Shown: piece after piece, positions 1-21,575 of the stretch
Layout of the letters: each line of letters begins with the position of its first letter
How positions within the stretch are numbered: position 1 is the first letter of the stretch
NCBI GenBank assembly: GCA_036504035.1
Contig: DASXVV010000012.1
Coordinates: forward strand, 1-64,000
DNA: 64,000 nt
DNA from: Candidatus Deferrimicrobiaceae bacterium
GTDB taxonomy: Bacteria > Desulfobacterota > Deferrimicrobia > Deferrimicrobiales > Deferrimicrobiaceae
Direction: 5' to 3'
Notes under the pieces: model-generated
Told to the model about the DNA's origin: nothing
The model's input: the letters and a program-made list of their open reading frames with translations, nothing else
Databases searched by the model: none
Program-made: the position numbers and the translations under genes

Positions 1-1176
1 CGCCACCACCGCGAAGCGCCGCCCGTGCTCGCCCGCCGCCGCCGACTCGATCGCCGCGTTCAGCGCCAGCAGGTGGATCTCGCCCGCGATCTCCTTGATG
101 AGATCCATCACCTTCCCGATCTCGCCGCTCTTCTCGCCCAGGAACAGCGTCTTTTGCGCGATGTCGGTCACCCGGTCCTTGATCCGGGCCATCCCGTCGA
201 CGCTTTCCCTGACCAGTGTCGTCCCCTGCTGCGCCATTTCGACCGTCTGCTCGGCGCTGGACTTGACCGATTCGGCGTTGCCCGCGATCTGGTGCGACGT
301 GCGGGAAAGCTCCTCCATCGTCGCCGTCACCTCGGCCAGAGACGCCGCCTGCTGCGACGCGCTCGTCGCCTGCTCCTGGATCACCGTCGTAATGCCCGCG
401 GAGAATTCGCCGACCTGGCCTCCCGCATCCTGGATCTGACGGATCATCGTGCGGATGTTCTCGGCCATGGCGTTGAATGCCCGCGCCAGCGCCCGCAGCT
501 CGTTCGTGCCCTCTTCGGGGACCTGCGTCCGCAGTTCGCCTCCGGAGATTTCCTCGGCCTTGAGTACGAGCCGGTCGATCCCCCGGGTGAAGCCCCGGGC
601 GAGCGTTCGCGAGACCAGCAGGGAGCCGATGAAGATCAGCACCCCGGCGATCGTGATGTCGGTTGCGAGCCGGCGCAACCCGGATTCGACTCCCTCGTAG
701 TTCATGCCGAGCTGGATCCAGCCGAGCGATTTTCCGCCGGGCGCCACGGGAATCGTCAGCTCGAGCGCGTGCGTCTTCTTGTGGGGGACGATTCGGCGGA
801 CGATCTTCATGGACCCCTCGGCCTTGCCGGCCGGAGCCTCCCACTTTGACCCGACCCGCGTTGCATCGGAATGCGCCAGGATTGTCCGGCTTGTGTCGAC
901 GACTGCGGCGAAGGCGATGTTGGGGTCGTGCCACGCCATGTCGTCGATGTACTTGGCCAAGTAGGCCTGGTCGAAGCCGGCGCCGCCCTTGGCGAGATTT
1001 TCGGTGGCGTCGGATTCCATGGCCGTCAGCAGCGCCCCGCCATGCCGGTAGAGACTGTCGTCGAGGGCGGATTTCGCCCGATAGTAGGAGAAAAAGGAAA
1101 CCAGGAGGGTCACCGCAAGTGCGAAGGCGGCAAAGGCCATCGTCTGCCGGGCCGCCATGCTGTTCGCCGATCTCAT
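1..1176 (-). CDS. Methyl-accepting chemotaxis protein (3' end outside the window)
   Basis: Transmembrane chemoreceptor that passes ligand signals to a CheA/CheW array. It reads leftward from the ATG at 1176 and runs off the left edge, giving 392 residues. An N-terminal membrane helix (about 8-28) is followed by a roughly 160-residue periplasmic region with a Cache-like stretch (FAAVVDTSRTILAHSD), a second helix, a HAMP segment, and the start of the methylated coiled coil. The visible end has the hairpin-type core (EIHLLALNAAIESAAAGEHG, then RRFAVVA), so only the distal signalling arm is missing. The ligand cannot be inferred. Confidence 0.93.
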   Translation of the reverse strand, partial: MRSANSMAARQTMAFAAFALAVTLLVSFFSYYRAKSALDDSLYRHGGALLTAMESDATENLAKGGAGFDQAYLAKYIDDMAWHDPNIAFAAVVDTSRTILAHSDATRVGSKWEAPAGKAEGSMKIVRRIVPHKKTHALELTIPVAPGGKSLGWIQLGMNYEGVESGLRRLATDITIAGVLIFIGSLLVSRTLARGFTRGIDRLVLKAEEISGGELRTQVPEEGTNELRALARAFNAMAENIRTMIRQIQDAGGQVGEFSAGITTVIQEQATSASQQAASLAEVTATMEELSRTSHQIAGNAESVKSSAEQTVEMAQQGTTLVRESVDGMARIKDRVTDIAQKTLFLGEKSGEIGKVMDLIKEIAGEIHLLALNAAIESAAAGEHGRRFAVVA

Positions 1177-1351
1177 CTTGATCCTTTCGAATCGTGGCTT
1201 TGCGGACGCTTTATCGGATCTGTTGTCATTTGTTTGTATCGGCAAAAGCATCCGGTTTCTTGCGTGTCAAATGCCGCTGGGGTATCGTACCCTCAAGGGT
1301 AACAGGAACCGTCGAATCCAGCCGGAAAGACGCAGGCAAGGGGGTGTCCGC

Positions 1352-1756
1352 TTGAGCGGTCAACAGTTGCTGTTCGTGGCGTTGTCGTTTGCCGTGATCG
1401 TACTCTCGGGTGTTCTCGCGGTCACGCTGCTCCAGCTTCGACGCACGATCCGGCAACTCGAGTCGCGCCTCGAATCGACGCTTCGCCAGGCCGAGATGAC
1501 GGCCGAGGATCTGCGCCGGACCAATGCGACGGTACGAGAGATCCTGGTCCACGTCGAGCGGGTTGCCGCCAACGTGGCGCTCGTGAGCGAAGGAGGCAAG
1601 AAGGTTCGCCGGTCGCTCGACATGGCTTCCGCCGGCATCGCCGGCATCGTGCTTCCGGTCATCGGCGGCGTATCGGGCGTGACGGCGGGTGCGAAGGCAT
1701 TCATCGAATCGCTCGTCAATCGGCATTCCCGAAAGGAGGAAGAAGATCATGTGTGA
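1352..1756 (+). CDS. DUF948-like membrane-anchored coiled-coil protein
   Basis: A 134-residue protein with one N-terminal membrane helix, a helical coiled-coil stretch rich in Arg/Glu (about 35-85), and a small-residue hydrophobic segment near the C terminus (IAGIVLPVIGGVSGVTAG). This is the DUF948 pattern; function is unknown. I chose TTG at 1352 because a purine-rich AAGGGGG lies just upstream and family members start right before the first helix. The frame is open further upstream, but that part lacks protein-like character. The 3' end overlaps the YtxH-type gene by 8 bases, so the two are translationally coupled. Confidence 0.72.
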   Translation: MSGQQLLFVALSFAVIVLSGVLAVTLLQLRRTIRQLESRLESTLRQAEMTAEDLRRTNATVREILVHVERVAANVALVSEGGKKVRRSLDMASAGIAGIVLPVIGGVSGVTAGAKAFIESLVNRHSRKEEEDHV

Positions 1757-2045
1757 AGAGAAGGGGTTCAACGGCACGGCTCTGGTCGCGTTTCTTGCGG
1801 GAGGTCTGATCGGCGCCGGCATCGCGCTCCTGACCGCGCCGGTCTCGGGCCGCGAGGCGCGCGAGAAGATCAGCGACCTCGCCGGCGATCTGAAAGAAAA
1901 GGCCACCGGCTGGACCGGCGATGTCCGGGCCAAGGTTGGCGGGCTGCTCGAACGGGAATCCTCCGCGGTCAAGGAGGCCTACGAGGCCGGCCGCGAGGCG
2001 ATGGCGCGCGAGCGCGCCAAGTTCGGGGAGAACACGCCTGAATAG
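1749..2045 (+). CDS. YtxH domain protein
   Basis: A 98-residue protein with one N-terminal glycine-rich membrane helix (FLAGGLIGAGIALLTAP) followed by SGREAREKI, the hallmark of the YtxH (gas vesicle/stress protein) family, then an amphipathic charged helix. The family is membrane-associated with no established biochemical role; relatives are often stress-induced. A GGAGGA ribosome-binding site lies just upstream of the ATG at 1749, inside the end of the DUF948-like gene. That pairing is common and suggests joint work at the inner membrane. Confidence 0.82.
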   Translation: MCEEKGFNGTALVAFLAGGLIGAGIALLTAPVSGREAREKISDLAGDLKEKATGWTGDVRAKVGGLLERESSAVKEAYEAGREAMARERAKFGENTPE

Positions 2046-2072
2046 CCAAGGCGACATCCGGGAATAAACGGT

Positions 2073-2109
2073 GCGGGGCGGGGGAATTGATCCCCCGCCC
2101 CGCTTTCTT
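2073..2109. terminator. Strong Rho-independent terminator
   Basis: A perfect 12-bp GC stem (2073-2084 pairing with 2092-2103) with a 7-base loop is followed by a T-rich run on the + strand. It ends the DUF948/YtxH operon and lies between this operon and the convergent rubrerythrin gene. Confidence 0.85.
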
Positions 2110-2140
2110 TTTCAGGCGCGTCGGCGATCGTGCGCCGATG

Positions 2141-2710
2141 CTACCAGTTCGACTCGGCCGGCATGAACCAGCCCTGCGGGTGCGTGCAGGCCTTGCACAC
2201 CTTGGGCGCCTCGGTCCCTTCGTGGATGTGTCCGCACTTGATGCATTTCCAGCGGATCGGCGCCTCGCGCTTGAAGTAGGTGCCGTTCCGGATTCGCTCG
2301 AGAAGATTCAGATAGCGCGCCTCGTGGTGGACCTCGACGCCCGCGATGTTCCGGAACGTCACGGCCGCCTTGGTGAACCCTTCTTCTTCGGCGATCTTCC
2401 CCATGGCCGGGTAGAGGTTGCTCCACTCTTCTTTCTCGCCCGCCGCCGCCGCTTCCAGGTTGACCCGCGTGTCGCCGATCCGGCTCGGGTACGAGGCCGT
2501 AAACTCGACGTCGGTCCCTTCGAGCAGCTTGAAGTACATATTGGCGTGCTTCCGCTCGTTGTCGGCCGTCTCGAGGAAGACGTTCGCGATCGCCTCGTAC
2601 CCTTCTTTCGAGGCGATGCCGGCGTAGAACGTGTAGCGGTTGCGCGCCTGAGATTCTCCGGCGAACGCCGCCATCAGGTTTTTCTCGGTCTTCGATCCCT
2701 TCATCGTCAT
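2141..2710 (-). CDS. rbr: Rubrerythrin
   Basis: A non-haem diiron peroxidase that removes H2O2 in anaerobes, using electrons passed through a rubredoxin-like centre. The 189-residue product has the ferritin-like four-helix domain with diiron ligands in FAGESQARNRY, ETADNERKH, EEWSNLYP and EVHHEARY. The C-terminal rubredoxin-like centre is KCIKCGHIH...CKACTHP. It has the usual length and both iron sites. The start at 2710 has GGAGG five bases upstream; ATG at 2704 is also possible. It is a separate unit from the pyrophosphatase upstream (40-base gap), although cotranscription is possible. Confidence 0.96.
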   Translation of the reverse strand: MTMKGSKTEKNLMAAFAGESQARNRYTFYAGIASKEGYEAIANVFLETADNERKHANMYFKLLEGTDVEFTASYPSRIGDTRVNLEAAAAGEKEEWSNLYPAMGKIAEEEGFTKAAVTFRNIAGVEVHHEARYLNLLERIRNGTYFKREAPIRWKCIKCGHIHEGTEAPKVCKACTHPQGWFMPAESNW

Positions 2711-2750
2711 CGTTTCCTCCGGTCGTTTCCTGGAATTTCCTGCCTTGCGA

Positions 2751-4409
2751 TCACTCGCCCTCCAGCCGGGAGAGCGCCTTGAGAAGGTGGGGGACAAGCT
2801 GTTTCTTGCGGGAGAGGACCCCCTTCATCTCGTAAAGGTGCGGCTCGACCTGGGGATATTCCATCACGTGGGCGATGCGCGTGTACCCCTCGACGAGGAA
2901 CAGCGTCACCTCGGCGGCGATATCGGTCACCATGAGCCCGGCCACGAAAAGGCCGTCGCGTTTCCGGATCGAAGAAAGGGCATCGAGGAACGCCTGCTTC
3001 ATCTCGTGAAATTCGTCGAAGCCGATGACCTCGACCTGCCCCACGCCGATCTCGTGGCTGCCGTGGCGGAACCGCTTGAAGTCGGATTCGAGCGCCTTGG
3101 CGGCCGAACCGAAGTTCCGGAGGGAGCTGGAGGCGGCGAAAATCTCCCGTCCGAACTCGGATGCATCGAGGTGGGCGATCGATTCGAGCCACCTGGCGGC
3201 GGCATGGTCGGATTCCGTCGTCGTGGGTGACTTGAGCAACACCGTGTCGGAGAGGATGCCGGCCAAAAGGAGGGCGGCGATCTTTTCCTCGGGCGCGAGG
3301 CCCTGCTCCCGGTAGCGGTCGGCGACGAGGGTGCATGTGCTGCCGACGGGCGACGTGATGAAGGCGATCGGGGAAACGGTCGGCCCGTTCCCGAGCTTGT
3401 GGTGGTCGATCACCTCTTCGATCTCGACCGCTTCGGCGCCCGGGACGGCCTGCCCGATCTCGTTGTGGTCGACGAGCGCCAGGGCGTAGGGAAGGGGGGC
3501 GAGCAGCGATGACTTGGTGGCAACACCCGCCAGCGTGCCGTCGTCCTCGAGGGCGAAGACCGAGGGCTCCCGCGAGGCGAGCAGCTTTTGCCGGAGGCGG
3601 GTCAGCGGTTCCCCGACGCCGATGGTCTCGAACTTCCGTTCCGCGAAAAGGGAGACGGGGGTGGACAGGCGCGCGAGCCAGGCCGCGGTGGCCGTGTCGT
3701 GCGGCGTGACGAGGATGATGGTCCCCCGATCGGCCGCCAGCGAACGCAACGACGCATCGGGCGCGTGGCCTCCGGTCAGCACCAGGATCCGGACGCCATG
3801 CTCGACGGCGGCCTGCTGGATCGGGACCCGGTCGCCGGTCATGACGAGCAGCTCGCGCGGGGCATACCCGGAGATCCGGCCGGAGAAAGAGGCGGCTCCC
3901 ATCGCGCCGATGAAGAGCTTGAGCGTGACCGGTGCGTCGAGGGCGTCCCCGCCGTCGAGCGACGCCCCGAGCGTCCGCGCCAGAGCGCGGGGAGTGGTGA
4001 GAATCTCCCGCTGGTGCTCGGCGCTGGGCAGCAGGTATTTCTCGGACAGGCGCAGCAGGGAAAGGATGCCCCAAGGCTTCCGCTCCGCGTCGAGCACCGG
4101 CAGGGTCCGGACGCCGCTGACGTGGAACGCCTCGAGCGCCTGGTAGGCGCTGGTGTCGAGTGTCACGGCCACCGGATCGGGCTTGATCGTGTCGCGCACC
4201 TTGGGGTGGACATCGGCGAGGGTGACGGGATCGGGGAGGCCGAGGCGGTCGAGGATGAAGCGTGTCTGGGGGTTCGGGGCACCCGCCATGGCGGCGACAA
4301 CCCGGGATGAGGCGCCGGTCCGCCGCTTGAGATCGGCATAGCCGATGGCCGCCGCGACCGAATCGGTGTCGGGATTCCGGTGGCCGATGACGAACAGCGT
4401 CTTTTCCAT
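2751..4409 (-). CDS. ppaC: Manganese-type family II inorganic pyrophosphatase with CBS and DRTGG-like insert
   Basis: Cytoplasmic enzyme that hydrolyses pyrophosphate to phosphate; the family uses Mn2+ or Co2+. The 552-residue product has the split DHH architecture. The N-terminal catalytic part (HRNPDTDSV) is interrupted from about residue 65 by a CBS motif, a DRTGG-like region and a second CBS motif. The DHH motif (VIDHHKLGN), LLAGILSDT and the DHHA2 domain ending in LSRKKQLVPHL then follow. CBS-containing members are regulated by adenine nucleotides in known relatives. It starts 29 bases after znuB on the same strand, so it probably shares the metal-transporter transcript. Confidence 0.9.
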   Translation of the reverse strand: MEKTLFVIGHRNPDTDSVAAAIGYADLKRRTGASSRVVAAMAGAPNPQTRFILDRLGLPDPVTLADVHPKVRDTIKPDPVAVTLDTSAYQALEAFHVSGVRTLPVLDAERKPWGILSLLRLSEKYLLPSAEHQREILTTPRALARTLGASLDGGDALDAPVTLKLFIGAMGAASFSGRISGYAPRELLVMTGDRVPIQQAAVEHGVRILVLTGGHAPDASLRSLAADRGTIILVTPHDTATAAWLARLSTPVSLFAERKFETIGVGEPLTRLRQKLLASREPSVFALEDDGTLAGVATKSSLLAPLPYALALVDHNEIGQAVPGAEAVEIEEVIDHHKLGNGPTVSPIAFITSPVGSTCTLVADRYREQGLAPEEKIAALLLAGILSDTVLLKSPTTTESDHAAARWLESIAHLDASEFGREIFAASSSLRNFGSAAKALESDFKRFRHGSHEIGVGQVEVIGFDEFHEMKQAFLDALSSIRKRDGLFVAGLMVTDIAAEVTLFLVEGYTRIAHVMEYPQVEPHLYEMKGVLSRKKQLVPHLLKALSRLEGE

Positions 4410-10049: not shown

Positions 10050-10159
10050 GCCGGGTTCGGCAGTAACGGGCATCGATCGCCTCCCAGGGACCATCTCACC
10101 AAGAGCAGGGATAGGAAGGGGTGTCTCGCCGCGCAGGCGAGCGCCCGGGGAGGCGTTCG

Positions 10160-11227
10160 ATGCCCGTGATCCTCCAAGCGGCGCACGCATCTCCGCCCCA
10201 CCGTTTCCGGCAGGATTTTCTCGGGGCGGTGGTCGCGGAACGGTTCGCCGGAAAAATGCCCGGCCTGGAACCCGATCGCATCCGGGACGTGTTCGCCCAT
10301 TCCCGGATCGACGAGCGCGCCTTCCTGATGCCGCTCGACTGGTATCTTGCCCCCCACACCATCGAAGATCGCAACCGGGCATTCCTGGAACAGGGATTCG
10401 CGCTCCTGGTCGAATCCTCCCGCAATGTCCTGTCGCTGTCCGGTATCCGCCCCGATCAGGTCGGGCAGGTCGTCTTCGTCACAACCACCGGCATGTCTGC
10501 GCCTTCCCTCGACAGCTACCTGGTCAACGCGCTCGGCCTGTCGCCCTCGGTTTCCCGCCTGCCGGTCTGGGGGCTGGGATGCGCAGCGGGCTCTGCCGGC
10601 ATCGCCCGGGCGTTCGATTACTGTCTGGCCCATCCCGCCGCGATCGTGCTTGTGGCTTCCCTTGAGACGTGCAGTCTCAACTTCATCCCGGACGACCTGT
10701 CGCGCCTGAACCTGGTGGCGATGTCGCTCTTCGCCGACTGCAGCGCGGCGGTTCTCGTAGCCGGCGATGCAGCGGCGGTCCCCAACGGCCCGGGCGTGCG
10801 GATTCTGGATACCCGGTCGCACTTCTTCCCGGGGACGACGGGCCTCATGGGCTGGGATGTGACCGACGCCGGATTCCGGCTGGTGCTCACGCCGGAGCTT
10901 CCCGAAATCCTCCGGTCGGAGCTTGGCGGGGTGGTCGACGCGTTCCTCGAAGCGCATGGCCTGTCGCGAAACGATGTCGTCCACGTGCTGGCCCATCCGG
11001 GCGGCGCGAAGATCATGGACGCCGTGACCGAGGCGCTGGGGCTATCCGCGGACCGGTTGCGGATCGGGGAATCGGTGTTGAGGGATTTCGGCAACGTCTC
11101 GTCCGCCTCCGTCCTGCTCGTGCTGGAGCGGTGGCTGGCCGAGGGGGGATACCGGAACCCGGGCTATGGGCTGATCGTCTCGTTCGGGCCGGGCTTCGCG
11201 GCGGAAATGGTGCTGGTGCGGTCGTGA
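10160..11227 (+). CDS. Type III polyketide synthase (chalcone/stilbene synthase family)
   Basis: A homodimeric condensing enzyme that extends an acyl-CoA starter with malonyl-CoA to make alkylpyrones or alkylresorcinols. The 355-residue product has the catalytic triad of the family: Cys in WGLGCAAGSAG, His in LAHPGGAKI and Asn in FGNVSSASV. A conserved GFG-like loop near the C terminus reads VSFGPGF. The ATG at 10160 lies shortly before the first beta-strand. The stop overlaps the start of the next gene (GTGA), so it is coupled to an isoprenylcysteine-methyltransferase-like protein, the pairing known from BpsA/BpsB and SrsA/SrsB systems. Confidence 0.93.
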   Translation: MPVILQAAHASPPHRFRQDFLGAVVAERFAGKMPGLEPDRIRDVFAHSRIDERAFLMPLDWYLAPHTIEDRNRAFLEQGFALLVESSRNVLSLSGIRPDQVGQVVFVTTTGMSAPSLDSYLVNALGLSPSVSRLPVWGLGCAAGSAGIARAFDYCLAHPAAIVLVASLETCSLNFIPDDLSRLNLVAMSLFADCSAAVLVAGDAAAVPNGPGVRILDTRSHFFPGTTGLMGWDVTDAGFRLVLTPELPEILRSELGGVVDAFLEAHGLSRNDVVHVLAHPGGAKIMDAVTEALGLSADRLRIGESVLRDFGNVSSASVLLVLERWLAEGGYRNPGYGLIVSFGPGFAAEMVLVRS

Positions 11228-11757
11228 CCCGATCCTTCGCGTGGGTGTTCGGGGTCCTGCTGTTGCAGCGGGCTTTCGAAGTGTTCGTTTCGATACGGAA
11301 CCGGAAGGCGCTCGAACCGCTGGGGGCGAAGGAATTCCATCCGGAGTCGTTCCGGAACATCGCGGCGATGCACGCCCTATACTTCGTTTCCCTTGCCGTC
11401 GAGTCGTACCCTTGGCGGCTGCCGCTCGATGTCCGGACGATCTCCTGCCTGGTAGCCGTGGCGCTGCTCGCGGGGTTGCGCCTCTGGTGCATGGCGTCGC
11501 TCCACCCGTACTGGAACGTCCGGATCGTCGTGGTGCCCGGCGCCCATGTGAAATCTTCAGGGCCCTACCGCTTCCTGAGGCACCCGAACTATCTGGTGGT
11601 TGTCCTCGAATTCCTCTTCCTGCCGCTCCTGATGCGCGCCCCCGTCACGATGGTCGTGTTCTCGGTCGCCAACCTGTTCGCGCTGCGCCAGCGCATCCGG
11701 TTCGAGGAGGAGGCGCTCCGGTCGCTGACCGATTACGGGAAAGTGTTCGGCGGCTAG
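11224..11757 (+). CDS. Isoprenylcysteine carboxyl methyltransferase (ICMT)-family membrane protein
   Basis: A 177-residue integral membrane protein with about four to five helices. It contains the SAM-binding signature of the family, GPYRFLRHPNYLVVVLEFL, and a late RIRFEEEAL motif. In type III polyketide clusters such proteins methylate the alkylpyrone or phenolic product (known for BpsB and SrsB); that role is inferred here from coupling to the upstream synthase. GTG at 11224 overlaps the synthase stop. The stop codon is part of CTAG (11754-11757), whose other strand supplies the stop of the convergent gene. Confidence 0.88.
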   Translation: MTRSFAWVFGVLLLQRAFEVFVSIRNRKALEPLGAKEFHPESFRNIAAMHALYFVSLAVESYPWRLPLDVRTISCLVAVALLAGLRLWCMASLHPYWNVRIVVVPGAHVKSSGPYRFLRHPNYLVVVLEFLFLPLLMRAPVTMVVFSVANLFALRQRIRFEEEALRSLTDYGKVFGG

Positions 11758-14708
11758 AGCGACAGGGCGCGCAGGGCGAGATAGACCGTCGCCTGGCCGT
11801 CCTCGTCGAAGCCGTAGGCGAAGCCGAGCGCCGGCTCGATCTTGAGCCAGTAGCCGAGCGTCATGTCGAGTCGCGCCTCGATCCCCGCGCCGATCCGGGT
11901 CGGCCCGCCGGGGCCGTCGCCCCACGAACGGCCGGCGTCGACGAACAGCGCGCCGTGGACCCGATCGAAGAAGAAGGGGCTGGTGCCCGGACCGCGGTAG
12001 AGGTCGCGGATCGGCGCGCGATATTCGACGGAGCCGGCGGCGATCCGGCTGCCGGTCTGGAAGCGCGACGGGTATCCCCGCAGCGGGAAATCGACGAGGT
12101 CGGACGGTGGGCCACCCAGCTGGAACGCGCCCTGGGGCGTCCGGTCGCCCGTCGCCAGCCCGCCCCGGGCGGCGAGGACGACGACGTGGTGCTGCGTCTG
12201 CCCGAACGGCAGCGCCACGAATTCCTCCCACGCTCCGACGTATTCCTTCCCCGAAAGGTCGCTGCCCCACCGCCGGTCGTAGTCCCGGAAGGTGAAGGCG
12301 ATGCGGCGTCCCTCCTCCTCGCTGATCGAATACGGGTACCTCAGCGCATCCGTGTAGCGGAACGTCGCGAACAGGCTGTCGCGCCTTCCCTCGAACACCG
12401 GGATTCCGCGGAACAGGCCGCCGGAAAGCGGGCTCTGCGCCTCCTCCTTCCGAAGCCGGTAGCCGACCTCGAGCCGCAGGTCCGACTCGACGTGGGCGAC
12501 GACGGGAAGGATGGCCGAGAGGACGAGGCCGCTGTCCCGCTCCCAGTAGTCGCCCCGGCGCAGGAGGTCGGAATAGAGCGCCGGCAGCGAGTAGCCCTTG
12601 ACGACCAGCGTCGGGCGGAACGAATCGTTGGCATATTCCGCGGCGAAATAGCCCTGCCCGCTCGAGAGGCCGACGCCGCCCTCGACGAACCAGGTGTGGC
12701 GGGCGAGGGCGTCCTGCCCGGCGGTGAGGGCGGCGGGCGCGAGGCCGTCCCGGTCGGCAAGCAGCGCCGGGAGCCAGAAGCGGGGGGTCAGCGTCGGCAG
12801 CGGATCGTACGGGTGCGACGGGGCGGGGGACGCAAAGGCGTCCCCGGAGGCGAGTGCCGGTGCCTCCCCGGAGGCGAGCGTCGCTCTGTTATTGGCCCCG
12901 GGCGCGATCGGGCTGCCCGGCGCGGGAATTGCCGCACGAAGCGAAGGCCCCGGCGCGCCGCGCCACCGGTCGGGGAGGAAGGGTACGGTGGCGATCCGGA
13001 AGCCGGAGGCGTGGTAGCTCGAGAAGGCGACCGAACGTCCGTCGGGCGCCACGTCGGGCTGGAAGGCGCCGCCGACCAGATGCGTCACCTGTCGGGGGGC
13101 GCCGCCCGCGGCGGGGCATGCGAACAGGTTGAAGACGCCGGTCTCGCCCGAGACGTAGACGATGAACCGCCCGTCCGGCGACCAGGCGGGCGCGGCGATC
13201 GGCGCATCGGTCGCCAGCAGTCGGCGGCTTTCGCGGGTGGCGAGGTCGTAGACGAACAGCCCGGCGACGCCGTCCTCGCCCGTCGCGACGTAGGTGATCT
13301 CCTGCCCGCCGGGCGACCAGCGCGGCCCCGAGAGGCGCGTCCGGGAGAGCGCAGTCACGTTGTCGACGCGATAGCCATGCTCCTCCGGCGTCAGGATCGC
13401 CAGATTCCGGTCGCCGGCGCCGGCGACGACGGCGGCGAGCATCTGCCCCTCGGGCGCGGCGTCGACCTCGGACAGCCGGAGGCCGCGGGTCAGCCGCTTC
13501 ACGCGCCCGCGCGACGCATCGAGGACGTACAGGTCCTGGTAGAGCTTGAATGCGTCCTCGACTTCGGCCTGGCAGAAATAGATGGCGCCGCCGTCGGGGG
13601 ACCAGGCGAGCGCCTCGTCGGAAACCACGCGCCGCGCCATCTCTCTCGCGTGCGTCCCGTCCGCCTCCGCGATCACGATCGATCCGTGCCCGTGGGGATC
13701 CCGGCGGGTCCACGCGATCCGCTTCCCGTCCGGGGAGAAGCGCGGGTGGGTCAATTCCTCCCCGTCGGAGGATAGCGCGTGTTCGGCCGTCGGCGGTTCC
13801 TTCGAAAGCGCCGCAATTTTTCGTTTCTGGTCGGCATTCAGGTCGAACACCATCCCTCGATACAGCGCCTCGTAGCTTACGCGGTCGAACAGCTGCTCCG
13901 GGGCGCCGTTGAGGGCGTAAGGAACGCGGCCCGCATGGCGCAGGCTGAGCTTCCCCGGCGCATCCGTACCCCGGGTCCGGGCGATGTAGGAGACGAGCTT
14001 CGAACCGTAAAGGTACGGCATGTGGCCGTCGGGCCAGGAGGGCAGCGACTCGTTGATCCGGTCGATCGTCGGCACGCGGCCTTCGAGGACGTCCATCCGG
14101 AAGACCATGTCGAAATAGACGCTGTTGTCACGGCCGCGATTGGTGAATGTCGATTCGGCCCACGTCGCCATCCCCTCGTGCCACCAGCGGGGGAGGAAGG
14201 TGTTGGGTGGCGCGGTGGCGAGGAAGGCCACAAGCGACAGCGGGTCGGCGACGGGGACCGGCTTGCCGAAGATCTTCCGGGTGACCGTGGAATAGCCGCG
14301 CGCCGGGTCGCTGGTCAGGATGTGGGCGTACTCGTGGACGATCACCCCTTCGAGCCACGACGCGTATTCGCCGAGCGTCGAATCGAGGGTGGGCGGGACG
14401 GGGAAGATATAGATCGTGTTGTAGGGCAGGGCGCTCGCAAAGCCGTTGGGGAAGTCGAACGCGTCGACCAGAACGAGCTGCGTCTTTTCGGCCGGTTCCC
14501 AGCCGAGCGGCACGGCCATCCGGCGGTGCGCCTCCTCCGCGTAGCGGGCAGCCTGCGCGGCGACGTTGTCGAGCCCGTCGTGGAAGTGCACCGAAAAGTG
14601 TTCCGTCTCGAGCGTCCGGAAGCGGAACGGGCTGGTGATCGACCCGCCGAAGGACGCGTCGACCGCCAAGACCAGGAGGAGCATGGAAAGGATCAGGGTG
14701 TTTCGCAT
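11754..14708 (-). CDS. Exported metallopeptidase/TolB-like propeller/outer-membrane beta-barrel fusion
   Basis: A 984-residue protein with a signal peptide (about 1-21) and three regions. Residues 25-300 look like a peptidase MA (gluzincin) domain with HEYAH at 125-129 and a likely third zinc ligand in WWHEGMATWAE (E178). Residues 310-600 hold repeated TolB/WD40-like strands (FSPDGKRIAWTRR, WSPDGGAIYF, WSPGGQEITYV, WSPDGRFIVYV). An Ala/Pro-rich linker leads to a C-terminal beta-barrel of the Omp85/surface-antigen kind (GYPSRFQTGSRIAAGSVEYR, ALFVDAGRSWGDG). It is probably in the outer membrane with the protease and propeller on one side. Substrate unknown. Confidence 0.82.
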   Translation of the reverse strand: MRNTLILSMLLLVLAVDASFGGSITSPFRFRTLETEHFSVHFHDGLDNVAAQAARYAEEAHRRMAVPLGWEPAEKTQLVLVDAFDFPNGFASALPYNTIYIFPVPPTLDSTLGEYASWLEGVIVHEYAHILTSDPARGYSTVTRKIFGKPVPVADPLSLVAFLATAPPNTFLPRWWHEGMATWAESTFTNRGRDNSVYFDMVFRMDVLEGRVPTIDRINESLPSWPDGHMPYLYGSKLVSYIARTRGTDAPGKLSLRHAGRVPYALNGAPEQLFDRVSYEALYRGMVFDLNADQKRKIAALSKEPPTAEHALSSDGEELTHPRFSPDGKRIAWTRRDPHGHGSIVIAEADGTHAREMARRVVSDEALAWSPDGGAIYFCQAEVEDAFKLYQDLYVLDASRGRVKRLTRGLRLSEVDAAPEGQMLAAVVAGAGDRNLAILTPEEHGYRVDNVTALSRTRLSGPRWSPGGQEITYVATGEDGVAGLFVYDLATRESRRLLATDAPIAAPAWSPDGRFIVYVSGETGVFNLFACPAAGGAPRQVTHLVGGAFQPDVAPDGRSVAFSSYHASGFRIATVPFLPDRWRGAPGPSLRAAIPAPGSPIAPGANNRATLASGEAPALASGDAFASPAPSHPYDPLPTLTPRFWLPALLADRDGLAPAALTAGQDALARHTWFVEGGVGLSSGQGYFAAEYANDSFRPTLVVKGYSLPALYSDLLRRGDYWERDSGLVLSAILPVVAHVESDLRLEVGYRLRKEEAQSPLSGGLFRGIPVFEGRRDSLFATFRYTDALRYPYSISEEEGRRIAFTFRDYDRRWGSDLSGKEYVGAWEEFVALPFGQTQHHVVVLAARGGLATGDRTPQGAFQLGGPPSDLVDFPLRGYPSRFQTGSRIAAGSVEYRAPIRDLYRGPGTSPFFFDRVHGALFVDAGRSWGDGPGGPTRIGAGIEARLDMTLGYWLKIEPALGFAYGFDEDGQATVYLALRALSL

Positions 14709-14819
14709 GGGATCTCCCGGATGATCTTGCCGATCGTCCAAATTGGCTGGTATTCAAGGATTAATGCAAATGATAGCATCTGCACCGAAACGCATTCCAT
14801 CGAACCGGGAGACCTTGTC

Positions 14820-15560
14820 ATGGGCAGTTCAATGCGGCTATTGCGTGGAAAGAAGGTCCGTTGTTTTCTTGTGCTCCTCTGCATCCAGCTTCTGCTTTTT
14901 GCAACGGGATGTTCCCATACGCTTGAAATCAAGAATCTTGCATCGTATCAGGCCACCTGCGCGAATTCCTTCGGGAAGCGACTGTCGGTTGGGGTCGTCC
15001 CGAAGGCGCCGGATCTCGAAACCACGAAGCTGGTGAAGGCGGTCGGCGCGGAACTGTCGAAGTATGGCGCGGAAGTCCTGCTGCCCTACGAATACAATTC
15101 GAAGCCCGTGGATATCATTGCCTCGATTGCCGTGACGCCGCACTACGAGGGCTCCGGCTGGAATTTCCTGATCAACTTTCCCGGTTTCCTGATCTTCACG
15201 CCCGCTTGGCACGGCTATATCTATGACGTGACGTTCGACGTCAACGTGGACCTCTTGAAGGCGTCGGACAAGACCCCGATCGGCAATTTCAAGATTCCGT
15301 TCAAGCTGGATGTCCGGCATGCCGCGATGAACCGGACCTGGACCGAGATCAGCTGGTTCGAAGTCGGCGTCATCGCCCTGGTCAGCGGGATCGTCTTCAC
15401 GTCGTACGACGACGGCGTGACTCAGCCGACGGTCGACCGGTCGTCCGTCACCATAGGGGATTACATCGCCCAGGAGATCATCAACCGGGTCAACGGCTCG
15501 GGCAAGTTCTCCGGGGTGCGGCTGGGCCCGGCGCCGCTGATTGACCTGGCGGCGCGGTAA
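14820..15560 (+). CDS. Putative outer-membrane lipoprotein
   Basis: A 246-residue protein with a basic N region, a hydrophobic stretch and a lipobox-like end (LLFATGCS), so Cys near residue 31 is probably lipidated. The rest is a globular domain with a late hydrophobic segment (WFEVGVIALVSGIVF) that could be a membrane helix. I do not recognise a family. The ATG at 14820 has GGGAG nine bases upstream; an in-frame ATG at 14832 is an alternative. It diverges from the peptidase/barrel gene and converges, five bases apart, with the DUF4105 gene. Confidence 0.7.
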   Translation: MGSSMRLLRGKKVRCFLVLLCIQLLLFATGCSHTLEIKNLASYQATCANSFGKRLSVGVVPKAPDLETTKLVKAVGAELSKYGAEVLLPYEYNSKPVDIIASIAVTPHYEGSGWNFLINFPGFLIFTPAWHGYIYDVTFDVNVDLLKASDKTPIGNFKIPFKLDVRHAAMNRTWTEISWFEVGVIALVSGIVFTSYDDGVTQPTVDRSSVTIGDYIAQEIINRVNGSGKFSGVRLGPAPLIDLAAR

Positions 15561-15565
15561 CGCCG

Positions 15566-17470
15566 TTAGAAATACCGGTTCCAGGAGAGCCGGGCCGACG
15601 TCTCACGTCGGCCCGGCTCGAACGTCTTCTGAACGTCAAGCGTGAGCGATTGGGTCCGGGTCAGCCCGAAACCCTGGCTCAGCGCGATCTCCCGTTCCCG
15701 CCCCCCGCGAAGATCTCCCGCAACGCCCTCGATCCATCGTCCCCGCATATGGACCGGCCAGCGCTCGCCCCACGAGCCGGCGAAGCCGAGCGTGGCACCG
15801 GCGCCGACGGTCCACCCCTTGTCGTAGCCCGGCGAGAGCACCCCTTCCGCCTCGGCCATCGCGTAGGCGACGCCCGGCCCCGTTTCCCATGCGAGGCCGA
15901 TCCCGGGATTCAGGAGCGTCCTCAGGTGCTCCGAACCGTCCTCGAAGCGCCGGTCGAACAGGCCGGCGCGAAGTTTCCACGACCAAGGCTTGAACAGTGC
16001 GTCGCGGGGCGCGGCGGAAAGGATGTCGAGGACGTCGAGCCGGGAGAGGCGGACCGTCTCTTCCGCCGGGAGGATCCGGATCCGGGTGTCGAGGAAGAGG
16101 ATCTGGGCGCCCGGCGCGAAGCCCCTCCCCGGATCATCGAGGGCATGGTACGCGGGGCGATAGCCCAGCTCCGCGAAGCCGTGACGGTCGACGCCCGCCG
16201 CGAAGGACAGGCGGCCCGCAGGGTGGCCCGATTCCGGGAGTTCCGGTCCGGGCGCCGGCGGACGCGCCGCTGCGGTGTCTTCGCCGAACGCGCTCCGCGC
16301 CGAGAGGATCGCGAGAAACCGCTTCTGGTACTGATCCTTGGGAATGTCGCCCGCCGCGTACTGCAGCTGGAGCCGGGAGGCGGCGCTCTCGAGCAGCACC
16401 GCCTTCTCGTGCGCGGGGAGCTGGCCAGCGGCCAGGACGGCCGGGGACAGCGTACCGTCGACAAGGCGGGGCGCCTGCTTCCGGAGTCCTGCGGGAAGGC
16501 CGGAAAGCGCCGAGCGAATGGTCCGGACGGGGGAAAGGCGGATGGCGGCGTTGTCGACCAGACCCGCCTCGCGGACCCATTCGATAGTCTCGACGGGGAG
16601 GACCCACGGCCCTTTCCGGTCGGTCAGGCGAACGGCGGGGCGCGCCGCCTCGAGCAGGAAGAGGAGGTTGTAGGAGCAGTTCTCGTCGAAGAAATAGTAG
16701 TCGGAGGCGAAGTCGCGCATCTCGAGCACGTGCAGCGTCATCCTCCGGACTTCCGCCCGGGACAGGTTCAGCCGGTACTCCCAGAGGTCGCGACGCTCCA
16801 GATCCCCGTACTCCTTCACCTTCTCGTAGTACGGCAGGATCGAGTAATAGCCGGGATAATAGCCGGTCAACCCTTTCAGGGCGTAAACGAGGCTCGTGTC
16901 GGACGGATCGGGTTTCGCCGCGTAGTTGACGGCCCACGACAGGAGCGGGCTTTCGTGGGCTCCGTCGATCCGGAGGAAGGTGTGGCCGGCCATCGACGAC
17001 GGGGAATTGATATGGGCCGACGCGAAGACGAGCGTCGCCGACCGCGGGTCGATGATCCGCAGCGCGTTGTCGAGCTCGCCGCATGTCCCGTCCCCGGAAG
17101 GGGGCAGCGGCAGCCCGAGCTGATCAGACAGCCATTCGAAGCGGGCGGGGAAGCGGCAGCGGGCGGGAAGGACGTTGTCGGAGGGGGGAGCTTGATCGCC
17201 GAACAGCGTGGCGATCGTTGCGGCCAACTCGCTTTCCGGATTCGTCTTGCCGTCCCGGGCCAGAAAGAAGCGCGGGTCGTCGACGATGCTCTTCACCCCG
17301 TTTCCGGCAGGCTTGTAGTGGAGCAGCACGTTCCAGTAGCGCGATTCGTGGAGGCGGGCGGCGCGGGCGGCTTCCGTCAGGCGGTCCGCCTTCAAACCGG
17401 GATCGGACGCCCCGAGGGCGGCCGCAAAGGGCAGGAGCAAAAAAAGAAGGCATGCGACCGTGCGTCGCAT
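15566..17470 (-). CDS. DUF4105 (Lnb N-terminal periplasmic domain) protein
   Basis: A 634-residue exported protein with a signal peptide (1-21). The DUF4105 core is recognisable by FASAHINSPSSMAGHTFLRI, LSWAVNYAAKPD, LTGYYPGYYSILPYYEKV and YYFFDENCSYNLLFLLEAA. Conserved His and Cys in these motifs suggest a papain-like or NlpC-like fold. The C-terminal third has beta-rich repeats ending in NRYF, consistent with an outer-membrane barrel. ATG at 17470 is preceded by GGGAAGG; ATG at 17485 is possible. The DUF3015 gene lies 40 bases upstream, a pairing seen in other proteobacteria. Substrate unknown. Confidence 0.85.
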   Translation of the reverse strand: MRRTVACLLFLLLPFAAALGASDPGLKADRLTEAARAARLHESRYWNVLLHYKPAGNGVKSIVDDPRFFLARDGKTNPESELAATIATLFGDQAPPSDNVLPARCRFPARFEWLSDQLGLPLPPSGDGTCGELDNALRIIDPRSATLVFASAHINSPSSMAGHTFLRIDGAHESPLLSWAVNYAAKPDPSDTSLVYALKGLTGYYPGYYSILPYYEKVKEYGDLERRDLWEYRLNLSRAEVRRMTLHVLEMRDFASDYYFFDENCSYNLLFLLEAARPAVRLTDRKGPWVLPVETIEWVREAGLVDNAAIRLSPVRTIRSALSGLPAGLRKQAPRLVDGTLSPAVLAAGQLPAHEKAVLLESAASRLQLQYAAGDIPKDQYQKRFLAILSARSAFGEDTAAARPPAPGPELPESGHPAGRLSFAAGVDRHGFAELGYRPAYHALDDPGRGFAPGAQILFLDTRIRILPAEETVRLSRLDVLDILSAAPRDALFKPWSWKLRAGLFDRRFEDGSEHLRTLLNPGIGLAWETGPGVAYAMAEAEGVLSPGYDKGWTVGAGATLGFAGSWGERWPVHMRGRWIEGVAGDLRGGREREIALSQGFGLTRTQSLTLDVQKTFEPGRRETSARLSWNRYF

Positions 17471-17510
17471 GCCTTCCCGAACCACGGACCGGACCGGATC
17501 AGCCGTCGGA

Positions 17511-18961: not shown

Positions 18962-19834
18962 TCACCCCAGCCGGATGAACACGATCCCCACGGCGATCAT
19001 CCCGGCGCCGATCAGCCGGATCTTTCCGAACGGCTCCCGGAAGAAAAGAATCCCCCCCAGCACGCCGAACACCGAGCTGACCTGCCGCACCGAGACGGCG
19101 TAGGAGACCGGCGCCATCTTGAGCCCCATCCGGTAGAGGATGAACGAGGCGAACAGGACCATCCCCCCCGCCATCGCCCGCGGCCAGCGCGCCTTGATCT
19201 CGGCCGCGAAGTTGAGCCGCTTGGGCGTCAGCATCACGTTGGCGAGCAGGAAGAGGAACAGGATGACGTCGAGGTAGTAGGTGTAGACGAAGACGTCGCT
19301 CACCGTGACGCCCCGCTTGTCGGCAATCGCGCCGACCGAATAGAAGACGCCCGCCGAGAGCGCCAGCAGCACCCCCGGATTGCGCAGGTTGCGCAGCGGC
19401 AGCGACAGCCCCGTCCAGGACATCTCCCGCATCTGCAGGATGTAAGCGCCGAGGAAGGTGATCGCGATGCCCGTCATCCCGGTGGGGGAAAGCCGCTCCC
19501 CCAGCACGAGGTAGGCCCAGAGCGGGATGTAGAGCGGGCCCGTGGTGGTCAACGGGTAGGCGACCGAGACGTCGATCCGGTCGTAGGAAGCGGTCAGGCA
19601 CATGTGGTAGGCCGAGAAGAAGAAGCCGCCGGCCAGCGTCAGCGGAAGCACCGGTCCGGTCGGCAGCGGGATCCCGCCGTGCCGGATGGCCAGGAAGACC
19701 GTGAAGAGGGCGATGGCCGACCCGTGCATGAACACGTTGAAGGCGAGCTTGTGCTTGCTGGTCTTGAGGATCAGGTTCCAGCCCGCGTGCATGACGGCGG
19801 ACAGGAGGATGAGCAGCAGGGCGCGATCGGGCAT
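18962..19834 (-). CDS. EamA/DMT-superfamily transporter
   Basis: An inner-membrane protein of 290 residues made of about ten helices in two EamA-like halves (for example LLILLSAVMHAGWNLILK at the start and YAVSVRQVSSVFGVLGGILFF, split as YAVSVRQVSS plus VFGVLGGILFF, in the second half). EamA proteins export amino acids or other metabolites; the substrate here cannot be predicted. It lies 22 bases after the TPR gene and 42 bases before the hydrolase gene, suggesting one transcript. Confidence 0.86.
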   Translation of the reverse strand: MPDRALLLILLSAVMHAGWNLILKTSKHKLAFNVFMHGSAIALFTVFLAIRHGGIPLPTGPVLPLTLAGGFFFSAYHMCLTASYDRIDVSVAYPLTTTGPLYIPLWAYLVLGERLSPTGMTGIAITFLGAYILQMREMSWTGLSLPLRNLRNPGVLLALSAGVFYSVGAIADKRGVTVSDVFVYTYYLDVILFLFLLANVMLTPKRLNFAAEIKARWPRAMAGGMVLFASFILYRMGLKMAPVSYAVSVRQVSSVFGVLGGILFFREPFGKIRLIGAGMIAVGIVFIRLG

Positions 19835-19856: not shown

Positions 19857-21575
19857 CTAGCGCTGGGCGCCGGATTCGTCGTAGGCGACGGAGCCGTCGT
19901 GCACCGCCGCGCCCGGCGGGTGCCCCGGCTTGAAGTGGACGATCAGCCGTGCCAGCCGGCGCGACAGGCCGGGGGCGCGCTTTTCGAGGAAGTCGCGTTC
20001 GAAAAGGGCGGAGCCGCGGTCGCCTGCGATGACGTGGTAGAGGCCGAAGTTGAAATGCGTCTCGACATCTTCCGGATCGAGCGCAGCCGCCTTCCGGTAC
20101 GCCTCGTATGCCTCCTGCCGGCGATCGAGCTCGGTGCAGGCCGCGCCGAGGTTGTTCCACGCCTCGGCATAGTCGGGCCGCAGCGCGACCGCGCGCTGGA
20201 AGGCGTCTAACGCCTCCCGGAAGCGGCCCAGCCGGTAGAGGCACAGCCCCAGGTTGTAGTGGTTCTTCGCATCGCCGGGAGCGCCTGCGGCCGCCGTCTC
20301 GAACGCCATCGCCGCCTCGCCGTAATGTTCGCCCGCGGCGAGGGCGACGCCGAGGTTGTAGTTCGCCTCGGTGTAGTCGGGCCGCGCCAGCACCGCCTGG
20401 CGATAGGCCTGCACGGCTTCGTCGTGGCGTCCCAGCGCCGATAGCGCGACGCCCAGATTGTAATGGGCGCGGGCATAGCCCGGCTGCAGGCGGATCGCCT
20501 CCCGGTAGGCGTCGACCGCCCCCTGGTGGTGCCCCAGCCGCGACCAGGTCACGCCCAGGTTGTAGTGCGCCTCGGCATAGGCGGGCCGCAACGCGATCGA
20601 CTGCTGGAATGCCTTCGACGCCTCGGGGTAGCGCGCAAGCTCGGCGCAGGCGGTCCCCAGGTTGTAGTGCGCTTCGGGATCGACGGGGGAGAGCTCGACC
20701 GCGCGCCGGAACGCCTCCATCGACCCCTGCGGGTTCGACAGCTCGGCGTCGGCGACGCCCAGGTTGAACCAGGCCTCGGGGTAATCGGGGTGGTGGACGA
20801 TGGCCTGGCGGTAGGCCTCGGCGGCTTCCTCGTGCCGCCCGACCTTGGCGTAGGCGGCGCCCAGCGAGTTGTGCGCCTCGGCGTTGCCGGGCGCGCGGCG
20901 GATCGCCTCGCTGAAGGCGTGGATCGCCTCCTGGTGCCGTCCGATCCGGCCAAGGGCCATGCCGAGCAGGAAGTGGATGTCCTGGATATCCGGTCGTAGC
21001 CGGATCGCCTTGCGGAACGACTCGACGGCCTCGGCGAAACGGGTCATCCGGTAGAAGTTTTCGCCCAGGTGGAACAGCGCCTCGGCATCCTCGGGGTGGA
21101 GCTGGACCACCTTGAGGAACGCATCGACCGCCTCGGCGTAACGCCCCTGCTTCGCGCACGCCTCGCCCAGGTTGAAATGGGCTTCGAGCAGGTCGGGCTT
21201 GAGGGCGAGGGCGCTGCGGAACGATTCGATCGACTCGGCGAAGCGGCCGACCTTTTCGAAGGCGACGCCCAAGTTGTTGTGGGCCAGCGCGAAATCGGGC
21301 TTGAGGGCGACGGCCCGGCGGTAGGCGTCGACCGCCTCGTCGTGGGCCGACAGGCGACCGCAAACCGCGCCGAGGTTGTTCCATGCCTCGGCGTAGCGCG
21401 GGTTGAGCGCGACCGCCTTGCGGAACGCGGCGGCCGCATCGGCGTACCGCTTCGCCCGACCGTACGCCAGGCCGAGGTTGTAGTGCGCCTCGGGCGCGTC
21501 GGGTCGGAGCGCCACGGCGGCGCGGCACGTCTCGATGGGGTCCTGCGTCCGGCGAGCGTCGCCGATTTCCGTCAT
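19857..21575 (-). CDS. Large tetratricopeptide-repeat protein
   Basis: A 572-residue protein built almost wholly of about fifteen 34-residue TPR units of the pattern A-x-YRxAxxLxPxxxxAHYNLG (examples: AHYNLGVALSALGRHDEAV and AWNNLGAVCGRLSAHDEAV). It has no signal peptide or membrane helix, so it is probably a cytoplasmic scaffold. The partner is unknown. GGAGAG lies ten bases before the ATG at 21575. The 56-base gap to feoA upstream is compatible with read-through from the iron operon, but a functional link is not shown. Confidence 0.88.
   Translation of the reverse strand: MTEIGDARRTQDPIETCRAAVALRPDAPEAHYNLGLAYGRAKRYADAAAAFRKAVALNPRYAEAWNNLGAVCGRLSAHDEAVDAYRRAVALKPDFALAHNNLGVAFEKVGRFAESIESFRSALALKPDLLEAHFNLGEACAKQGRYAEAVDAFLKVVQLHPEDAEALFHLGENFYRMTRFAEAVESFRKAIRLRPDIQDIHFLLGMALGRIGRHQEAIHAFSEAIRRAPGNAEAHNSLGAAYAKVGRHEEAAEAYRQAIVHHPDYPEAWFNLGVADAELSNPQGSMEAFRRAVELSPVDPEAHYNLGTACAELARYPEASKAFQQSIALRPAYAEAHYNLGVTWSRLGHHQGAVDAYREAIRLQPGYARAHYNLGVALSALGRHDEAVQAYRQAVLARPDYTEANYNLGVALAAGEHYGEAAMAFETAAAGAPGDAKNHYNLGLCLYRLGRFREALDAFQRAVALRPDYAEAWNNLGAACTELDRRQEAYEAYRKAAALDPEDVETHFNFGLYHVIAGDRGSALFERDFLEKRAPGLSRRLARLIVHFKPGHPPGAAVHDGSVAYDESGAQR

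Follow-up and report, generated by a model that had tools for sequence, protein, structure and literature searches.

The 64,000-nucleotide stretch analysed here (the window), positions 1 to 64,000 of contig DASXVV010000012.1 of a Candidatus Deferrimicrobiaceae bacterium, carries a gene that raises the question of what a single protein combining a peptidase, a propeller and an outer membrane barrel might do, and on which side of the outer membrane it would act. The gene is intact and lies on the minus strand (ATG at 14706-14708, coding sequence 14708-11757, stop codon at 11754-11756); the original prediction, which was made from the sequence, had placed it correctly at 11754-14708 and gave no strand. 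The product of 984 amino acids (aa) begins with a probable signal peptide and a peptidase domain of the gluzincin type, continues with a propeller resembling TolB and a disordered linker, and ends in a barrel of 16 strands (Table 1). We consider it reasonably probable that this protein is a zinc metallopeptidase that is anchored in the outer membrane mainly by its barrel, faces the periplasm and acts on envelope proteins or peptides.

Conservation of the three-domain protein

Frames in 96 loci were scored, and those retained matched with hmmsearch at E<=1e-20 and spanned the profile from before position 120 (<120) to beyond position 640 (>640). Merging of copies that share the last 500 residues left 64 relatives in addition to the protein of the window; fragments, TolB-like frames and one degenerate homologue (L105, discussed below) stand outside this set. 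His125, Glu126, His129, Glu178, Glu185, Tyr232 and Gly235 are identical in 64/64 relatives spanning peptidase and propeller, and among these residues are the two His and the Glu of the HEYAH site and the Glu of WWHEGMATW to which the original prediction had drawn attention. For the peptidase alignment, thinning at 85% identity left 51 rows in addition to that of the window, and the peptidase domains of this thinned set are 27-79% identical to the window's. Mean pairwise identity is 0.427 for the peptidase vs. 0.362 for the propeller and 0.366 for the barrel, and the numbers of invariant columns are 19/258, 2/275 and 8/334 respectively. By these measures, conservation is highest in the peptidase domain. 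The three-part protein is not a chance fusion.

The peptidase domain

At the composition of this protein, an HExxH motif has a chance expectation of about 0.03. The Pfam family Peptidase_MA_2 matches the 984-aa protein itself at E 0.32, and it reaches E<=0.01 in 26/52 peptidase domains (best 5e-9), a set that includes the window's own domain, which falls short. The whole-chain AlphaFold model (24 rows, mean predicted local distance difference test score (pLDDT) 76.7, predicted template modelling score (pTM) 0.75) assigns residues 134-168, directly after HEYAH, a pLDDT <50, and for this reason the peptidase domain was folded alone. AlphaFold2 prediction of residues 24-312, with 52 rows, gave a mean pLDDT of 89.5 and a pTM of 0.89. 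Foldseek matched this model, at E 1e-4 to 1e-3, to insulin-regulated aminopeptidase (IRAP), collagenases G and T, LTA4H and an M61 peptidase (M1/M9/M61), and VIA aligned it with lugdulysin, an M30 zinc peptidase (Z 15.7, 236 residues, root-mean-square deviation (rmsd) 5.1), and with IRAP (Z 15.3, 245 residues, rmsd 5.3). Since mostly helical models may reach Z values up to about 13-14 without kinship, as a note to VIA states, the fold match was weighed jointly with the invariant site and not alone. In the 50 VIA rows listed for the whole-chain model, which barrel and propeller fill, zero are peptidase chains.

The features of the gluzincin clan, HExxH with a downstream Glu, are present, and the model shows the Peptidase MA fold. 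His125, His129 and Glu178 probably bind zinc, and the domain is presumably active as a peptidase. One lugdulysin entry has a title that refers to an E242Q Y315F mutant, consistent with a catalytic pair of Glu and Tyr, and we infer that E242 and Y315 correspond to Glu126 and Tyr232. Tyr264 was also considered as the catalytic Tyr and was dropped, with Tyr in 47/66 rows only. The spacing from His129 to Glu178 is 48 residues here and 33-49 across 65 rows, and that from Glu178 to Tyr232 is 53 residues in 65/65 rows. The MEROPS signature of family M1 is HExxH-x18-E together with GxMEN; membership in M1 was rejected on the 48-residue spacing and on inspection by eye, in which GxMEN was not seen before HEYAH.

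Propeller and linker

The propeller is the only domain that is clear from a library search with the single protein, with a PD40 (Pfam) match at E 7e-25 in five stretches. Its model superimposes on E. coli TolB (Z 26.4, 240 residues, rmsd 2.3), and the whole-chain model places it at about residues 310-576, which bears out the blades that had been read from WSPDG-type motifs. The NCBIfam TolB equivalog cut-off is missed (104.5 bits vs. 343.15).

The linker that follows, measured from G569 to P642, spans 72 residues here and 46-140 across 65 rows, with Pro and Ala fractions over all rows of 0.136 and 0.143. In one homologue (L104, 348-3611 on the minus strand) the linker before the barrel contains several copies of a short tandem repeat of the SIVN..LSPIVNRQS type, suggesting that the length of the linker is free to drift.

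The Omp85-type barrel

A C-terminal barrel had been expected from the sequence; its Omp85 type, which is its most informative part, had not been named. The whole-chain model has 16 long strands from residue 646 to 982, two 3-residue pieces inside loop 6 being left uncounted. VIA placed the barrel model closest to Deinococcus BamA (Z 24.0, 309 residues, rmsd 3.6), followed by Sam50, E. coli BamA and TamA. The longest gaps between strands are 20 residues after strand 7 (loop 4) and 35 residues after strand 11 (loop 6). BamA likewise has its longest loops, 4 and 6, directed outward, with loop 6 between strands 11 and 12, and in the model loops 4 and 6 are presumed to lie on the outer side.

On the 984-aa protein itself, Pfam Omp85 (PF01103) gave E 0.08, and the NCBIfam Deinococcus-type BamA model matched residues 837-970 at E 1.9e-7 (29.4 bits vs. 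a cut-off of 1050). A barrel alignment was selected at 70% identity (42 rows), of which 40 plus the window's were used and the divergent L050 and L056 left out. PF01103 reaches E<=0.01 in 34/41 of these barrel domains (best 5.4e-15), the window's own being included and falling short, and the barrel profile matched seven PDB sequences at E<=0.01, BamA among them. The library evidence from the single protein is thus weak for barrel and peptidase alike, and it is the relatives that settle both the Omp85 and the Peptidase_MA_2 assignments.

The same genome encodes two further Omp85 proteins (E 3e-59 and 6e-58), POTRA-type by eye, to which hhalign aligned the barrel profile (probability 93.8%, E 1.7e-7 and probability 93.3%, E 2.7e-7). 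They carry IRGF/VRGF, and LRGY of the window protein aligns on the IRGF of one of them (L098); LRGY is followed by EYRAP and then by a VDAG strand. The loop-6 motif of Omp85 proteins is (V/I/L)RG(F/Y). In the relatives, of which 61/64 cover the loop-6 Gly, the signature is kept with R877 in 60/61, G878 in 61/61, Asp/Glu at position 924 in 60/60 and Glu944 in 56/60. Neither a POTRA nor a patatin domain had a Pfam match at E<=10 in the 984-aa protein, the N-terminal 600 residues of which are peptidase and propeller. The barrel belongs to the Omp85 (BamA) superfamily.

The three-part order and the outer membrane tether that had been suggested from the sequence are supported by both models and relatives. 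Structure prediction had been proposed as the check, and neither a chain lacking a barrel nor one lacking a zinc site appeared in the models and alignments, the zinc site being one of predicted residues.

Distribution and a second branch

A scan of genome contigs found 28 loci, 26 of them at 39-70% identity and mostly titled Geobacter, Geomonas or Geobacteraceae; of the remaining two, one is a Myxococcota locus (27%) and the other is partial (24%). Named Geomonas strains and Citrifermentans bremense R1 possess the gene. Among sampled genomes of its own phylum, 67/395 had matches at E<=1e-20, of which 24, its own included, scored >270 bits and the others were mostly TolB-length frames. The corresponding numbers are 76/195 at E<=1e-30 for the phylum of the Myxococcota locus and 20/117 for the class of the Geomonas locus. 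Within its own family, the gene is present in 3/24 genomes, all of one genus. A quick tree places it within a 32-row group with Geobacteraceae and other rows of the same phylum. Distribution and tree fit a transfer into the genus or many losses.

A putative second, deep branch (L099, L100, L101, L103 and L104) comprises proteins of 1046-1250 aa with the same three-domain order. HExxH (as HEFxH) and EG are kept in 5/5 read, L102 being outside this count, and in one of these proteins the peptidase was matched by hhalign at E 1.9e-22. Both kinds of protein occur together in some genomes, e.g. G411 and G085.

Proposed function and alternatives

The protein would be exported by Sec and its signal peptide cleaved, after which BAM would presumably insert the C-terminal Omp85-type barrel into the outer membrane, where the barrel would serve chiefly as an anchor. 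The flexible linker would allow propeller and peptidase to extend into the periplasm, and the N and C termini of a 16-stranded barrel are on the periplasmic side. His125, His129 and Glu178 would hold the zinc, Glu126 would activate water and Tyr232 would probably steady the intermediate. Propellers gate access in prolyl oligopeptidases, and TolB docks partners; the propeller here probably docks partners or admits only unfolded chains and short peptides as substrates. The likely task of the protein, similar to that of BepA, would be to process or clear envelope proteins in the vicinity of the outer membrane. POTRA domains sit close on their barrel; the variable, disordered linker is more in keeping with a tether than with a rigid coupling of the POTRA kind, and its looseness suggests an anchoring role for the barrel. 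With two other strong Omp85 matches in the genome, BAM function is probably covered elsewhere.

Several points weigh against this reading. The mutual orientation of the domains may not be fixed by a whole-chain model whose peptidase is partly of low confidence. The peptidase profile had zero matches at E<=1 to PDB sequences. Neighbouring genes, compared over sets of 27 and 46 loci, give no pointer to a substrate. The signature residues of Omp85 proteins (the RGY of loop 6, the acidic residue at 924 and Glu944) are kept, so that the barrel may also have a role beyond anchoring.

A further point is the degenerate homologue L105 (G023:C75:4300-8200, 478-3381 on the minus strand), an intact gene for 967 aa in another genome of the phylum. 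It is a single case from one draft genome, 90% complete and 5% contaminated. It aligns across the entire peptidase domain (hhalign E 6.7e-32) and retains the propeller and an LRGF loop, and it reads YELIK for HEYAH and WLKKG for WWHEG, so that the zinc ligands are all lost. This sequence is likely a pseudopeptidase, and with the zinc site lost and propeller and barrel kept, the protein there would have a role that does not depend on this catalysis.

The loss of the catalytic site in L105 would suit a factor for the assembly of outer membrane proteins, that is a BamA-BamB-like fusion in which the peptidase domain would serve mainly for binding or as a side branch for quality control. The kept R877, G878, acidic 924 and Glu944 and the nearness of the barrel model to BamA and Sam50 point the same way, and assembly has been proposed for the WD40-Omp85 subfamily, described in 2014 by Heinz and Lithgow and likened to a BamA-BamB fusion in passages of PMC4104836. 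However, POTRA domains have no Pfam match here, the linker is loose and the catalytic residues are invariant in all 64 relatives. Moreover, the gene was not found at E<=1e-20 in 21/24 genomes of its own family, not all of which are complete, and this is hardly expected of essential machinery. We regard an assembly factor as unlikely, though the strongest of the competing explanations.

The choice between surface and periplasm was left open by the original prediction. Of these, the periplasm is favoured by the side on which the termini of such barrels lie, by loops 4 and 6 pointing outward and by the precedent of PlpD, a patatin-Omp85 protein, and the surface appears less likely by the same analogy. 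A surface-displayed protease, whose barrel would carry peptidase and propeller across the outer membrane, has in its favour that the order of passenger and barrel resembles that of autotransporters and that the long disordered linker could thread the barrel. Such a route was first proposed for PlpD of Pseudomonas aeruginosa (type Vd secretion), which was once held to be secreted; its enzyme domain was then found to be periplasmic, and its authors judged it unfavourable for a folded domain to pass through such a barrel (as given in parts of PMC11116518). In the window protein, peptidase and propeller would have about 550 residues to bring across. By analogy with PlpD, the peptidase would face the periplasm, and surface display is improbable.

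A more specific possibility, which we put forward as speculation with a small chance of being right, is quality control of the outer membrane in one chain: the lateral seam of the barrel would recognise unassembled barrel proteins or the C-terminal signals of these, the propeller would hand them over and the tethered gluzincin would degrade them. If this were true, WD40-Omp85 proteins would be proteases and not assembly factors, and L105 would be a derived pseudoprotease adaptor.

A nutrient or export peptidase, with the barrel as an open pore and the peptidase trimming incoming or outgoing peptides, would be in line with the many aminopeptidases among the gluzincin fold matches, with a patchy distribution that suits an accessory function and with a TLC-type transporter near the gene in 6/22 Myxococcota neighbourhoods, but it is very improbable, as loop 6 with LRGY is expected inside the barrel as in BamA, and the TLC protein, presumably an inner-membrane nucleotide-transporter type, was not seen in the window.

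Features and gene neighbourhood

Table 1 Features of the peptidase-propeller-barrel gene, with positions in the window
Feature	Residues	Position	Strand	Evidence
Whole gene, 984 aa + stop		11754..14708	-	Open reading frame; sole full-length match in genome
Probable Sec signal peptide	1 to ~21	14646..14708	-	By eye
Gluzincin-type peptidase domain	28-303	13800..14627	-	AlphaFold2, Foldseek, VIA; Pfam Peptidase_MA_2 in family
HEYAH, probable two His ligands + catalytic Glu126	125-129	14322..14336	-	H125, E126, H129 in 64/64 relatives; roles from motif
WWHEG, probable third ligand Glu178	175-179	14172..14186	-	E178 in 64/64 relatives
YLYG, candidate transition-state Tyr232	232-235	14004..14015	-	Y232 + G235 in 64/64 relatives
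TolB-like beta-propeller	305-582	12963..13796	-	PD40 and TolB matches
Disordered Pro/Ala-rich linker	583-631	12816..12962	-	pLDDT <50 at 592-628
16-stranded Omp85-type barrel	632-984	11757..12815	-	Model strands, BamA match, family Pfam, hhalign
LRGY, loop-6 motif of Omp85 barrels	876-879	12072..12083	-	Between strands 11 and 12; aligned with IRGF of own-genome L098

Three other matches to the 984-aa protein in the genome are limited to residues 462-575. A GGGAG resembling a ribosome-binding site was seen by eye 5 nucleotides upstream of the ATG. The signal region lacks a lipobox Cys, the only Cys residues of the protein being 379 and 531. The scan of 11500-15100 found zero sigma-70-like promoter sites (shuffles 0.2) and one terminator-like site (shuffles 1.7). 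Plus-strand open reading frames (ORFs) over the gene, 11241-13775 and 13779-15560, were dismissed as mirror frames, with the exception that the latter ends within a divergent gene from about 14820.

The gene looks monocistronic. Upstream lies the divergent gene (14820-15560, plus strand) for a lipoprotein-like protein of 246 aa, with zero Pfam matches at E<=0.01, followed by a protein with an Lnb N-terminal periplasmic domain, DUF7843 and DUF7840 (15566-17485, minus strand) and, further on, by one of 572 aa that by eye consists mostly of TPR-like repeats (19857-21575, minus strand). Downstream, and converging on the gene, are a type III polyketide synthase (chalcone/stilbene synthase family) and an ICMT-type methyltransferase (10121-11757, plus strand).

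Conserved neighbours were considered as a hint to the substrate and rejected: besides the gene and its overlapping frames, only single-locus matches were found, namely an EamA-like permease ORF (18962-19834) matched in 1/27 other loci and an ABC-ATPase-type ORF in 1/46. Many neighbour clusters proved to be ORFs antisense to GC-rich genes and were left aside. In the Myxococcota neighbourhoods (L117-L138), a related alpha/beta hydrolase is near the gene in 13/22 and a TLC-type ATP/ADP-transporter-HEAT protein in 6/22, as assigned by Pfam on two examples each; neither is near the gene in the window. In the nearest relatives, L023 and L001 (70%), the gene is beside a LolA-like chaperone (by eye in L001) and an ATP-grasp enzyme, with an XrtA-type polysaccharide deacetylase in addition in L023, these assignments all being under the NCBIfam cut-offs. 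The genome of the window has a weak match to the ATP-grasp enzyme and none to the XrtA-type deacetylase; without close matches to these neighbours, the location of the gene differs between near relatives.

Comparison with known systems

The window protein shares with the WD40-Omp85 subfamily a TolB-like propeller followed by an Omp85 barrel and the absence of POTRA, and the two sets are likely the same. PF00149 is, we take it, the calcineurin-like phosphoesterase family. For this reason the separate 'metalloprotease' Omp85 class of PMC4104836, which in the relevant passages rests on PF00149, differs from the peptidase-propeller-Omp85 protein, and the word 'peptidase' does not occur in the main text of that paper. 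WD40-like Omp85 proteins were still among those not well characterised in 2024, according to an excerpt of PMC11116518. The original prediction knew of no characterised protein with this order. This stands in so far as the literature matches listed (open-licence papers, by title and start of abstract) include no study of a peptidase-propeller-Omp85 protein, and it has to be narrowed in that propeller and barrel were already described together in 2014 (PMC4104836, in part). The peptidase-bearing form either varies a known but unstudied subfamily in a new way or is its full form, so far unrecognised.

Among the enzyme-carrying Omp85 proteins, the studied cases that appear in a section of PMC11116518 are PlpD and its homologue FplA. 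PlpD similarly has an N-terminal enzyme domain on an Omp85 barrel, but a patatin-like lipase in place of the peptidase and POTRA in place of the propeller. We know of no long loose linker in PlpD. BepA is a periplasmic zinc peptidase concerned with the maturation and degradation of LptD (PMC8423444, in part). The likeness to BepA, an M48 peptidase that works at BAM, lies in a periplasmic zinc peptidase tied to an outer membrane protein and concerns the proposed role only; BepA is a separate soluble protein of another peptidase family. It also has a TPR part.

With the gluzincins (M1, M9, M30, M61; Peptidase_MA_2) the protein shares the model fold and HExxH with Glu, and it differs from them in the 48 residues between His129 and Glu178, vs. 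18 in M1, and in sitting on a propeller and a barrel. With TolB it shares the type of propeller, and it differs in its other N-terminal domain and in the additional barrel. Omp85 proteins are known chiefly for inserting and translocating proteins. A peptidase-propeller-Omp85 family that is widespread and keeps its active site invariant would shift the guess about WD40-Omp85 proteins from a BamA-BamB-like factor to an envelope protease.

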